A stretch of 64,000 bases of DNA, taken from positions 1-64,000 of the forward strand of contig CALXOF010000006.1 of the NCBI GenBank assembly GCA_944389945.1, given 5' to 3'. This stretch comes from an uncultured Kiritimatiellota bacterium. GTDB lineage: Bacteria; Verrucomicrobiota; Kiritimatiellia; RFP12; DVOR01. This document shows, piece by piece, positions 6,249 to 40,621 of the stretch. Under the pieces are notes generated by a model. That model was given only the letters and a program-made list of their open reading frames with translations. It did no database searches and was not told the origin of the DNA. The position numbers and the translations under genes were made by a program. Within the stretch, counting starts at the first letter, position 1. Each line of letters starts with the position of its first letter.

Positions 6249-6406
6249 GACGTAATCCTTTCTCTAGGAAACGGTGACTCCGTGAGTATACCATAAAAAA
6301 GGAGAACGGAGAACAGAAAACGGAGAACAGAACGCGCGGCAAGCGCGCGACAGGTGGGGTGCCAGTCCGAACTACCAAACATCCAAACAACCACTCAAGT
6401 CTTTGT

Positions 6407-6610
6407 TATACTAATAACACGCGATGGGAGAGCCATCGTAACTTTGCACTTTACGCAAATTGATTGCCTCAGTCGAAACTTCGGAACTTTCAATTGAGAA
6501 GGCAATTCAATTGGTGAAGTGTGCCATTCCTTGGCACACTTCCTTTTTGGATGCTTTCTCATGGGTTCCGAAGACCTCGACTGAAGCACGCAAAAAGGAA
6601 GTGTGCTTTT
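6407..6610 (+). promoter_or_regulatory. structured leader RNA, copy A (riboswitch-like), with promoter
   Basis: TATACT (6407-6412) is followed by CACG (6418) and hairpin P1, CGATGG-GAGAG-CCATCG (6422-6438). P2 is TTTGC/GCAAA (6443-6459). A stacked arm follows: Pa CAGTCGA/TCGACTG (6470-6476 with 6577-6583), Pb CTTCGGAAC/GTTCCGAAG (6479-6487 with 6565-6573), Pd TGAGAAGGC/GCTTTCTCA (6495-6503 with 6553-6561) and Pc GAAGTGTGCC/GGCACACTTC (6516-6525 with 6533-6542). The segment 6534-6549 is perfectly complementary for 16 bases to 6591-6606, which holds the AAGGAA ribosome site of the next gene. Copies B (18568) and C (40610, minus) share the fold. Confidence 0.75.
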
Positions 6611-7660
6611 ATGTCTACAAATGACTCCTCTGACAAACTCCACTTGGCCTATGCAACGGACAAGGGATATTTACTTTTGGCGACGGTCTCGGCCTTGAGC
6701 GCCATCTCACAGACAAGCGACCCCGCACAGCTTGTCTTCCATCTGCTTGATTGTGGATTGGACGAGGCTGACTGGAAACGCTTCCATGAAACTTTGACGC
6801 GGGGTGATACGAAACCAACGGTGTTGCGTCATCGTATTGGGATGGGGCAATTTGAGGGGTTCACAAAGTGGCGAGGTAGCATGGGGCCATATGCGCGACT
6901 CCTGTTACCGGAGATTCTGCCAGATGAATCGTGGTGCGTGTATGTCGATTGTGACACCCTCTTCGTTGACGATCCGCTGAGGTTGCGCGCGTGCGTGGAC
7001 CACAAAGCCGCGCTTCAGGGATACCCGATTTGGCAGGGGAACTTTAGCGAACAATGGGTGGTGGATGAGGTTTGCGCCTGGTTTCGCGAAAATCGAGGCA
7101 AAGATATCGAGAATGGCACACTCTATATCAATTCAGGCTTCATTGTGGTCAATCTGGATTGGTGGCGCAGACATGGGGTAAAAGACGCGTGCATGGATTT
7201 CTTGCAACAATGCCCCTCCGCTCATTGGCCTGATGAAATGGCCCTCAACGATGCTTGTTTTGGCCACACCAAAGCTCTTCCCGCTGGATGGGGCACCTTC
7301 GCCGGCTATGCTTTGCGTACGCCTACACTCCACTGTGTCCATTATATCGGCTGTGCGCCGCACAAGACGCGTTTCAACCAAATGTATGGGTTCAACGACA
7401 TCACGGCCGCCTGGATGGTCTGTGCGCAAACACTGCTTGGCCTGTCTGTGACGGAGGCATGTGGTGTGCCGCGTTGGAAATGGGAACTTGGGCGGCTTTA
7501 CAACCATCTGCTTCGTCCTATCGTTGCACTTGGAGTACATCTTCCGAGTCTAAAAGGGACAAAGCTTGTCTTCCTACTCCAAGGAACCTTCGTTACAAGG
7601 GCCAATCGATGGCTCCATTCCCCTCGGCTGTGGACGGAGCGCTGGCATGGACAAGCCTGA
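6611..7660 (+). CDS. glycosyltransferase family 8 protein
   Basis: 349 residues. GT8 enzymes are retaining, metal-dependent sugar transferases that use UDP-sugars, often for LPS or surface glycans. The DxD motif is DCD at residues 113-115 (CVYVDCDTLFVDDP). The N-terminal LHLAYATDKGYLLLATVSAL, the LYINSGFIVVNLDWW segment and the later WPDEMALNDACFG match the GT8 fold. The acceptor and sugar cannot be read from the sequence. I chose ATG 6611 because AAGGAA lies ten bases upstream; the in-frame ATG at 6521 lies inside the leader RNA. The gene is monocistronic. Translation is probably controlled by the leader at 6418-6610. Confidence 0.87.
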   Translation: MSTNDSSDKLHLAYATDKGYLLLATVSALSAISQTSDPAQLVFHLLDCGLDEADWKRFHETLTRGDTKPTVLRHRIGMGQFEGFTKWRGSMGPYARLLLPEILPDESWCVYVDCDTLFVDDPLRLRACVDHKAALQGYPIWQGNFSEQWVVDEVCAWFRENRGKDIENGTLYINSGFIVVNLDWWRRHGVKDACMDFLQQCPSAHWPDEMALNDACFGHTKALPAGWGTFAGYALRTPTLHCVHYIGCAPHKTRFNQMYGFNDITAAWMVCAQTLLGLSVTEACGVPRWKWELGRLYNHLLRPIVALGVHLPSLKGTKLVFLLQGTFVTRANRWLHSPRLWTERWHGQA

Positions 7661-18555: not shown

Positions 18556-18745
18556 TATAATAAGCGGCACGTGGAGGGAGAGCCTTCATCAATTGATTGC
18601 GACCTCGCAACCAGCACGTCAGAGAAAACTTAGGAACTTTTCGAAAAGGCGTCATGGATGCGGCGTGCGCGTATGCGCATCGCCTCCCTTGTCTTCTTTT
18701 CGGGTATCCTAAGACCTTCTCTGGAGACACAGGGAGGTTTTTTGG
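18556..18745 (+). promoter_or_regulatory. structured leader RNA, copy B (riboswitch-like), with promoter
   Basis: TATAAT (18556-18561), CACG (18568), then P1 GTGGAGG-GAGAG-CCTTCAT (18571-18589), P2 TTGCG/CGCAA (18597-18610), Pa CAGAGAA/TTCTCTG (18620-18626 with 18717-18723), Pb CTTAGGA/TCCTAAG (18629-18635 with 18707-18713), Pd CGAAAAG/CTTTTCG (18642-18648 with 18696-18702) and Pc GGCG...CGCC (18662-18684). CCTCCCT plus TGTC (18683-18693) can pair with the site GACA-C-AGGGAGG (18726-18737), which is a strong ribosome site for GTG 18746. A partial HP-A lies just upstream at 18475-18515. Confidence 0.7.
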
Positions 18746-18793
18746 GTGGCCCCAGGGAACCGACCTCACAACCACGACCAGGGAGAACCACCC

Positions 18794-19237
18794 ATGCCAC
18801 AATTCCAAACTGTAACCATTCAAGGGAAAGGTCTGTTTAGCAAAAACATGACCCTGACCTTGACCGACAAATGGCTCATCGTCAAAGACAGCTTTGGCGG
18901 CGAGGTGATGCGCCTATCTCCCAGTCAGGCCAATATGCGCGTGGAGGCCTGGGGGAGCGGAATCCTTCTTGTGTCCTTTATTTGTTTCCTGCTTGGCCTC
19001 TTCATGGTGAGTTCTACCCTCTTTATGACCATGGAGAGCGGAGCACTTAGCCCACTGTCGCTCTTGGGTGCTATTCTGATTGTCGCAGGTTTTTGGCGTT
19101 TGGCAAAGAGCAAATACCGCAAACTCTACTTGGTGGTGGGCTGCGGGCAATTTTTCCTTGTCAAACCAGAAGAGGTACCCAAACTCTACCAGTTAATGGA
19201 AATGGTAGAGAATTGGACCGCCAACAAGGAACGCTGA
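18794..19237 (+). CDS. small membrane protein, unknown function
   Basis: 147 residues from ATG 18794. It begins with a soluble beta-rich stretch (VTIQGKGLFSKNMTLTLTDKWLIVKDSFGGEVMRL, split by turns), then has two transmembrane helices (about 57-77 and 85-103) and a short cytosolic end. I do not recognise a family; the N-terminal part recalls a PH-like domain. AGGGAG is eight bases before ATG 18794. A GTG at 18746 in the same frame has an even stronger AGGGAGG nine bases ahead and adds 16 residues; that is the start expected from the leader architecture. A terminator follows at 19255. Confidence 0.65.
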   Translation: MPQFQTVTIQGKGLFSKNMTLTLTDKWLIVKDSFGGEVMRLSPSQANMRVEAWGSGILLVSFICFLLGLFMVSSTLFMTMESGALSPLSLLGAILIVAGFWRLAKSKYRKLYLVVGCGQFFLVKPEEVPKLYQLMEMVENWTANKER

Positions 19238-39591: not shown

Positions 39592-40287
39592 TTAGGCCAC
39601 GCGGCGGCGGAGCGCCACGCCCGCCACGCCCAGCGCCAACAGCGCCAACGCCGTCGGCTCAGGAATAGAGTAAGTCTGGCGGAGGTCATCGATGGTGGCC
39701 TGCGCATAAGCCACCTCGAAATCCTCCCCGAACGCAATGCCGCTGGCTTCCTCGTCCATGCTGACCTTGTTGCCAAGGACATACTTATAGACCCACCAGT
39801 TGCCGCCGGCCACTGCTGCATTCGTGATGGTGTAGATTTCCACGCCATCAACGAAGAGGGAGGCATTCATCCTGCCATCGGTCGTGCGCTCGATGGCCAA
39901 GGCCAGCTCGTGCTTCTGCCCGTCCAAGAGTTGAGCGATGCTAGCATCCTTGCTCGTGTGCGAGTCCGTGTTGCCGATACCCAAATGAAGGATACCATCT
40001 CTCATCCACACGGTCGGAGAAGAGTCCTTGTGTCCATTTTCATCGTCGCCAAAGCTCAGCAACGAGCCGGAATAGGAATCACTGGACGAGGTGAAGGTGG
40101 CGATGACGCGCAGGACGCCGGCTTGAGACCCACCCGTCTGGAACCCAGGCGCGATGTGGGCCCCGTTCGGCAAAGTGCCGAGGGTGCCGGCGGTGTAGTT
40201 GTCGATGGCGTTCCACGCGATGTTCGCCGCTTGGGCAGCGCTAAGAGCCAGCGCGGCAAAGGCCGCGGTAAGCAGTGTTTTCTTCAT
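39592..40287 (-). CDS. PEP-CTERM sorting domain protein (LamG-like)
   Basis: 231 residues from ATG 40287. A signal peptide (MKKTLLTAAFAALALSAAQA) is followed by a beta-rich domain of LamG/concanavalin type (DGILHLGIGNTDSH, HELALAIERTTDGRMNASLFVDG) and a C-terminal Pro-Glu-Pro, hydrophobic stretch and Arg cluster identical to that of the protein at 16008-16670. The two proteins otherwise share the layout rather than close sequence. GAAAGGAG precedes ATG 40287. ATG 40425 in the same frame, directly behind the leader RNA and AAAAGG, would add 46 Gly/Ala/Pro/Arg-rich residues ahead of the signal peptide. Confidence 0.85.
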   Translation of the reverse strand: MKKTLLTAAFAALALSAAQAANIAWNAIDNYTAGTLGTLPNGAHIAPGFQTGGSQAGVLRVIATFTSSSDSYSGSLLSFGDDENGHKDSSPTVWMRDGILHLGIGNTDSHTSKDASIAQLLDGQKHELALAIERTTDGRMNASLFVDGVEIYTITNAAVAGGNWWVYKYVLGNKVSMDEEASGIAFGEDFEVAYAQATIDDLRQTYSIPEPTALALLALGVAGVALRRRVA

Positions 40288-40424
40288 GTGGTTTTGTTTC
40301 TCCTTTCCCGCCCATGGGGGAGACCGAAGGGGACCTGGGCAGGAAAGGGAGGCGGCTCCTTCGGCTGTTGCGCCGCAGACACACGCCCGCGAACGCGCGT
40401 TCCCGCTTCCCGGCCCAGCCGGCA

Positions 40425-40621
40425 TAAAAAGACGCACCGCCTTTTCACGTCCTCTTGAGGCCCTGAGAAAGCCCTGATAATGGCGTGCAAAGAGAGTGCG
40501 CCAAGGATGGCGCACTTCGCCGAACACATCGCATTATCATGAAAGTTCTCAGGTTTCAAGAGGCGACTGGTCCGCGCAAAGCGCAGGAGCTGTGGCTTAC
40601 CCACAGCGTGACAATAGAATA
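40425..40621 (-). promoter_or_regulatory. structured leader RNA, copy C (riboswitch-like), with promoter
   Basis: Minus strand: TATTCT (40621-40616), CACG (40610), P1 CTGTGG-GTAAG-CCACAG (40606-40590), P2 CTGCGC/GCGCGG (about 40586-40570), Pa CCTCTTGA/TCAAGAGG (40563-40556 with 40458-40451), Pb CCTGAGAA/TTCTCAGG (40553-40546 with 40469-40462), Pd TGATAATG/CATTATCA (40539-40532 with 40482-40475) and Pc AGTGCGCC-ATCCTT-GGCGCACT (40516-40495). CGCACTCTCTTT pairs with AAAGGCGGTGCG just before ATG 40425, with one mismatch and two G-U pairs. Internal loops A/RCC and CTTTC/GGG match copies A and B. Confidence 0.72.

Follow-up and report, generated by a model that had tools for sequence, protein, structure and literature searches.

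Leader RNAs in the 64-kb window

The 64-kb window—the whole stretch of DNA analysed here, from a Kiritimatiellota bacterium, very probably of the gut—contains three copies, designated A, B and C, of a structured leader RNA, each located behind a promoter and ahead of a gene. Copy A (6418..6610, plus strand) is complete, being matched at positions 6417-6614 with an E-value of 1.4e-46 by R1, a covariance model made from eight copies in the host genome (A, B and C with five others obtained by BLAST with copy A). Its promoter, with an extended -10 element (TG..TATACT), lies at 6404..6412, the tetranucleotide CACG follows 5 nt further on, and the hairpin P1 (6421..6439) has the loop GAGAG closed by GG/CC. 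The remaining parts, all on the same strand, are segment 1, i.e. the hairpin P2 with a linker (6445..6470); the 5' side of the core (6468..6485), which covers the 5' strand of helix Pa, the loop AA and the 5' strand of helix Pb (CTTCGGA); the 5' side of the second conserved loop, ACTTTC (6486..6491); segment 2 (Pd5'/Pc5', 6494..6527), complementary to segment 1 and, in a long hairpin, to segment 3; segment 3 (Pc3'/Pd3', 6531..6562), with segments 2 and 4 as its alternative partners; the 3' side of the core (6563..6583) with GGG of loop 2, the 3' strand of Pb (TCCGAAG), ACC of loop 1 and the 3' strand of Pa (TCGACTG); and the tail, segment 4 (6584..6608), the partner of segment 3. A Shine-Dalgarno sequence, AAGGAAG, can be read inside segment 4 at 6595-6601 (plus strand), and the U-run (6607..6610) ends the terminator-like 3:4 stem immediately before the ATG at 6611, with which the open frame of a family 8 glycosyltransferase begins (6611..7660, plus strand; PF01501, 1.7e-15).

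Copy B (18567..18746, plus strand; R1 E-value 9.8e-24) is a complete, divergent member with the -10 box TATAAT at 18556..18561; its U-run (18738..18743) is followed by a GTG at 18746 in the frame of the gene and by a later ATG at 18794, from which a small protein is encoded (18794..19237, plus strand). Copy C (40422..40611, minus strand; R1 E-value 5.6e-39), also complete and with the -10 box TATTCT at 40616..40621 on the same strand, precedes the gene of a PEP-CTERM protein (39592..40425, minus strand; PF07589, 3e-6), in which the ATG behind the U-run shares the frame with a likelier start at MKKTLL. The four-segment layout of copies B and C is the same as that of copy A.

A preliminary description of this DNA, prepared from the letters alone, had already placed the three copies and their helices here, and re-reading and folding agreed with it: the -10 box, the 5-6 nt to CACG, the P1 loop G(A/T)RAG with its GG/CC closing, P2 and the Pa-Pb-Pd-Pc arm were all found. 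P2, taken for a small hairpin, does form one, but it is part of a segment of about 25 nt complementary to the 5' arm, and the layout, right for the arm, omitted the 3' tail, in which the 25-nt segment 4 and the U-run belong to the fold. Concerning the genes, the glycosyltransferase behind copy A and the PEP-CTERM protein behind copy C had been named correctly, whereas for the "small membrane protein" behind copy B the size and a membrane segment seen by eye hold, but Pfam gives no match.

Compared with dinucleotide shuffles, the fold has a z-score of -9.1 in copy A, -3.0 in copy B and -6.7 in copy C. In copy A, the duplexes 1:2 (6445-6470 with 6499-6523, -25.0 kcal/mol) and 3:4 (6532-6557 with 6584-6608, -34.4 kcal/mol) were each equalled in 0 of 300 shuffles, the duplex 2:3 having -40.4 kcal/mol. 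The corresponding values for copy B are -24.4 kcal/mol for 1:2 (18597-18621 with 18647-18672) and -28.6 kcal/mol for 3:4 (18674-18697 with 18723-18751; p=0.03), and for copy C, on the minus strand, -29.9 kcal/mol for 1:2 (40562-40586 with 40510-40533) and -26.9 kcal/mol for 3:4 (40481-40503 with 40430-40452), the last being weak by simple shuffling (p=0.12).

Covariation and the conserved core

The three copies are members of one cis-regulatory leader RNA family with a length of about 190 nt. That its stems change while the pairing is kept, as had been proposed, is evident already from eight copies, in which 36 of the 62 pairs vary on both sides; the number rises to 58 of 62 in 50 aligned rows and to 60 of 62 in 104 rows, with 91.7% of the cells paired. 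It should be noted that alignment to the model, as used for the 104 rows, is biased towards the structure, whereas the eight copies giving 36 pairs were aligned by sequence alone. The covariation score of the 104 rows is 0.535, compared with 0.144 in shuffles, none of 500 of which reached the observed value; when the partner is slid by 1-3 columns, the score drops to 0.05-0.07 and the pairing to about 40%. Among the cells that are not Watson-Crick pairs, G-U (297) clearly exceeds A-C (63), which assigns the RNA to this strand.

The family exhibits a fixed core, GRAA-[Pb]-AMUUUC...GGG-[Pb']-NCC-UC, i.e. an aptamer-like arrangement in which Pb, a freely covarying 7-bp helix, lies between two conserved internal loops; the conservation of the core was in part preset by the search pattern, the other rows having come from R1 instead. 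The loops AA/NCC and AMUUUC/GGG, described earlier as alike in the three copies, are the best conserved positions of the alignment. In the host genus, 61 copies give the promoter consensus TTGC-N~17-TGCTATNNTA..GGCACG, with the 5' end of the RNA 5-6 nt further on, and P1 with a GNRAG-type loop near that end is a feature of the members from Kiritimatiellota.

With Rfam release 15, a tRNA alone exceeded the gathering cut-off in the 64-kb window and an unrelated FMN riboswitch alone was found at 16 loci from Bacteroidota and the PVC group, while a permissive search with copy A and one copy from Bacteroidales returned no credible match; a known Rfam family was thus rejected in both strict and permissive searches. 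The preliminary description had suggested both this comparison and a covariance-model search, and with many homologues, massive covariation and no Rfam match, its candidate class of structured leader RNA is well supported. Its remark that plain similarity would not show the family is right for copies B and C, both missed by BLAST with copy A, but not for five more copies in the same genome, which that search did find.

Distribution of the family

The 2.3-Mb host genome contains 21 full-length copies (R1, E-value below 1e-5). Of 59 relatives, 47 have R1 matches, and the count reaches 33 copies in a single genome of 1.9 Mb; across the phylum, matches occur in 91 out of 388 genomes, both within the host's own class and beyond it. 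Scanning 84,980 species genomes with the core pattern yielded at least 113 stretches; among the matches listed, every named one comes from Bacteroidota or from the Kiritimatiellota/Lentisphaerota/Verrucomicrobiota group, the others being titled just "uncultured bacterium". A second covariance model, R2, weighted to Bacteroidota, has matches in at least 35 of 296 Bacteroidota genomes versus 10 of 296 with R1, so that R1 undercounts there, and it still recovers 14 copies in the host genome. The genome counts are lower bounds because the filters were strict. The core pattern was unmatched in viral contigs and the RNA had no blastn match in plasmids and phages, on which grounds spread by phages or plasmids was rejected. 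Members occur in the culturable Segatella copri, Prevotella ruminicola, Pedobacter and Niabella, which makes direct testing possible.

Several arrangements of individual copies deserve mention. The host-genome copies L022-L027 (R1 scores of 33-48 bits) form a divergent subgroup, several having Pb CTACCAC/GTGGTAG and a GGAGGCACGCC tail; since this subgroup precedes different genes, the host genome seems to contain at least two subtypes. In a contig from Rikenellaceae (L178:734-1447), two or three copies are arranged in tandem with a spacing of about 300 nt. Two near-identical units of the RNA with a GtrA-like gene are located 3.6 kb from each other (G005:C8 9463 and 13030; L158), and because the coding region of the first is rearranged, duplication or recombination of the cassette seems to take place. 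In a MAG titled Lentisphaeraceae, an FMN riboswitch adjoins a copy of the RNA (L131:6671-6803, minus strand).

Downstream genes

The downstream open reading frames were classed by profile search and clustering. Within the lineage groups, which are approximate, being drawn from record titles, DNA methyltransferases and other restriction-modification genes are the commonest class in the Bacteroidota found by the pattern (40 of 76 frames; mostly Bacteroidales among the matches listed), and they account for 18 of 80 frames from the host genus and for 7 of 49 from the remaining Verrucomicrobiota/Kiritimatiellota. The methyltransferases cover the EcoRI-type, type I HsdM, IIG/MmeI, type III Mod, CcrM-like, D12 and C5 types, a variety that rules out co-transfer with one gene family as the explanation. 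In the reverse direction, the RNA precedes, on the same strand, 19 of about 24 genes of EcoRI-type methyltransferases with a readable upstream region in the taxonomic order, the denominator having been judged by hand. Further targets in the host genus are PEP-CTERM proteins, glycosyltransferases GT8, GT2 and GT4, GtrA, acyltransferases and polysaccharide genes.

The out-of-sample Bacteroidota differ, with 0/19 methyltransferases and, as the main targets, TonB transporters of the SusC/RagA type that lie 200-700 nt behind the RNA (the identity held for 10 of 10 genes checked), so that the regulon is lineage-dependent. A general "methyltransferase riboswitch" was rejected on the basis of this set. 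The envelope roles that the preliminary description had seen in common do apply to the PEP-CTERM proteins and glycosyltransferases, but are too narrow for a range of targets that includes restriction-modification and SusC, and "envelope genes only" was likewise discarded.

At PEP-CTERM targets (40284-40425 of the window, minus strand, and L204, L209, L219 and L233), the ATG behind the U-run often shares its reading frame with a later MKKTLL start, which gives an unusual N-terminal extension of about 40-45 codons across a conserved spacer.

Four alternately complementary segments and a proposed switch

The RNA is built in the order 1-[Pa5'Pb5']-2-3-[Pb3'Pa3']-4-U-run, segment 4 (after Pa3') resembling segment 2, and segment 1 (P2 and the linker) resembling segment 3. 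For 102 distinct copies, the duplex energy of the true partners was compared with that of partners swapped among copies. The values were -22.0 versus -13.6 kcal/mol for 1:2, -30.3 versus -18.3 kcal/mol for 2:3 and -27.0 versus -18.2 kcal/mol for 3:4, the true partner being better in 102, 102 and 101 of the 102 copies, respectively; the pairs 1:3 (50/102), 2:4 (52/102) and 1:4 (46/102) were without effect in the same test. The outcome is the same inside each phylum group, and 25 R2-found loci outside the test set-up gave 25/25 for each of 1:2, 2:3 and 3:4. The sequences of the segments drift, while their complementarity and the core stay fixed.

In most copies a U-run comes directly after the 3:4 stem, at least five T being present in the next 8 nt in 54%. 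In the host genus, a start codon with an open frame is found within 4 nt of the U-run in 39 of 63 copies, all 39 of which have a Shine-Dalgarno-like motif upstream, in segment 4. Some copies have a short hairpin within segment 4 itself, ahead of the U-run. In the Bacteroidales loci L105, L080, L087 and L156, a conserved GATAAG-type element, similar to segment 2, lies between the U-run and the ATG and is possibly a third pairing partner.

Judged by their sequences, the pairings are the mutually exclusive ones of an expression platform, and the leader with its own promoter is probably, at a rough probability of 0.7, a two-state terminator/antiterminator switch of expression. In state A, segment 2 would pair with segment 3, the helices Pa and Pb closing the core; segment 4 would stay free, transcription would proceed and the Shine-Dalgarno sequence of host-genus copies could be read. 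In state B, 1 would pair with 2 and 3 with 4, the latter giving a stem of about 17-20 bp followed by the U-run—the shape of an intrinsic terminator—that would also mask the Shine-Dalgarno sequence. Both states are presumably in use, with B as the OFF state. Since the equilibrium favours state A by an average of 14.7 kcal/mol, state B would depend on kinetic trapping or on the binding of a factor. Drifting segments around a fixed core indicate a factor reading the core, and a protein or a small molecule recognising the Pb core would hold state A. Two qualifications concern particular groups: where segment 4 has its own hairpin before the U-run, termination may be possible in state A, too, and the Shine-Dalgarno arm is inapplicable to the SusC group, given the distance to the gene start.

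What may read the core, and other explanations

Within the switch reading, an antitermination or other RNA-binding regulator acting on the Pb core, and in Kiritimatiellota also on the P1 loop, has a reasonable chance of being the reader, if somewhat short of even. A diverse accessory regulon of surface, uptake and DNA-modification genes is typical of protein-mediated antitermination, and the position of the GNRAG-type loop near the 5' end fits such a regulator, although the form of that loop is lineage-specific. The other sub-case, a true riboswitch in which the Pb core would be the aptamer for a small molecule, with the four segments serving as its expression platform, seems rather unlikely. 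Its compact core with conserved internal loops on either side of a freely covarying helix, its terminator/antiterminator architecture, and its many copies per genome and wide taxonomic range, as seen with signalling riboswitches, would all suit it, but the same core could be read by a protein and the downstream genes belong to no single metabolic pathway. The word "riboswitch-like" of the preliminary description is therefore apt for the architecture, i.e. the core and the exclusive pairings, but there is no metabolic regulon that would indicate a ligand.

That the element is an independent small RNA, ending at the U-run and just located in front of variable genes, is improbable. The RNA does have its own promoter and a strong terminator shape, and in the SusC group it is well separated from the gene; however, most host-genus copies pass directly to a start codon, the Shine-Dalgarno sequence being inside the RNA, 19 of about 24 assessable EcoRI-type methyltransferase genes have it immediately upstream, and segments 1-4 drift freely, unlike the seeds of small RNAs. 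A structure of the DNA strand, such as a recombination site or a mobile-element hairpin, could be suspected from a long imperfect palindrome present in many copies and associated with horizontally moving genes, but is very hard to reconcile with the wobble asymmetry, with a promoter fixed at the 5' end and a U-run, a Shine-Dalgarno sequence and a start codon at the 3' end, and with most positions differing between copies. Least credible of all is a ribosome-controlled attenuator of the trp type. The logic of four segments, 1:2 and 3:4 with a terminator at 3:4 versus 2:3, is identical, but the RNA has a conserved Pa/Pb core between the segments and targets other than amino-acid genes. A leader peptide was rejected here because leader ORFs that start with ATG and extend into segment 1 are depleted (27 of 102 copies versus 51-62 when the upstream part is shuffled), which speaks against ribosome-driven attenuation.

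Relation to known systems and implications

With terminator/antiterminator riboswitches, the family shares its leader position, a conserved core and exclusive pairings that end in a stem with a U-run or in a masked Shine-Dalgarno sequence; it differs in a regulon that, instead of a metabolic pathway, comprises DNA methyltransferases together with SusC and surface proteins, and its core, a 7-bp helix flanked by the AA/NCC loop and the AMUUUC/GGG loop, matches no riboswitch class known to us. Protein-bound antiterminators (LicT/BglG RAT, EAR, put, JUMPstart/ops) are likewise leader RNAs near the promoter of surface or accessory genes, and RAT has two asymmetric internal loops like the core described here, but the family has no Rfam match to any of them, and we know of none with this length, four-segment design or sequence. 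The FopS RNAs of Bacteroides, also multi-copy in Bacteroidota and linked to SusC control, are trans-acting sRNAs of about 65-70 nt with a conserved R1' base-pairing seed (PMC11697453); the present family consists of elements of about 190 nt upstream of a gene and is unrelated in sequence, and identity with FopS was rejected on length and seed after the copies had been compared by eye with the published description (PMC11697453). The genome-wide RNA discovery papers, as far as searchable, contain no fitting mention of these gene contexts or lineages, and no description was found in the literature within a search of partial coverage. The family is rated new as a class, its kind being that of attenuator-type leader RNAs; an earlier description may exist.

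DNA-modification, SusC-type transporter and surface-glycan genes are classes of phage receptors or defences, and as a guess, the regulon may be linked through phage susceptibility. More broadly, and tentatively, the family could be an unrecorded class of bistable leader RNA, common to Bacteroidota and the Kiritimatiellota/Verrucomicrobiota group and conserving just a small core and a pattern of complementarity, by which one RNA-based signal would govern DNA modification, nutrient transporters and surface glycans, i.e. gene classes affecting phage susceptibility. A large RNA class in two major lineages of gut and soil bacteria is apparently without an Rfam family, and if the RNA senses one signal, that signal would coordinate restriction-modification, SusC-type uptake and surface glycosylation.
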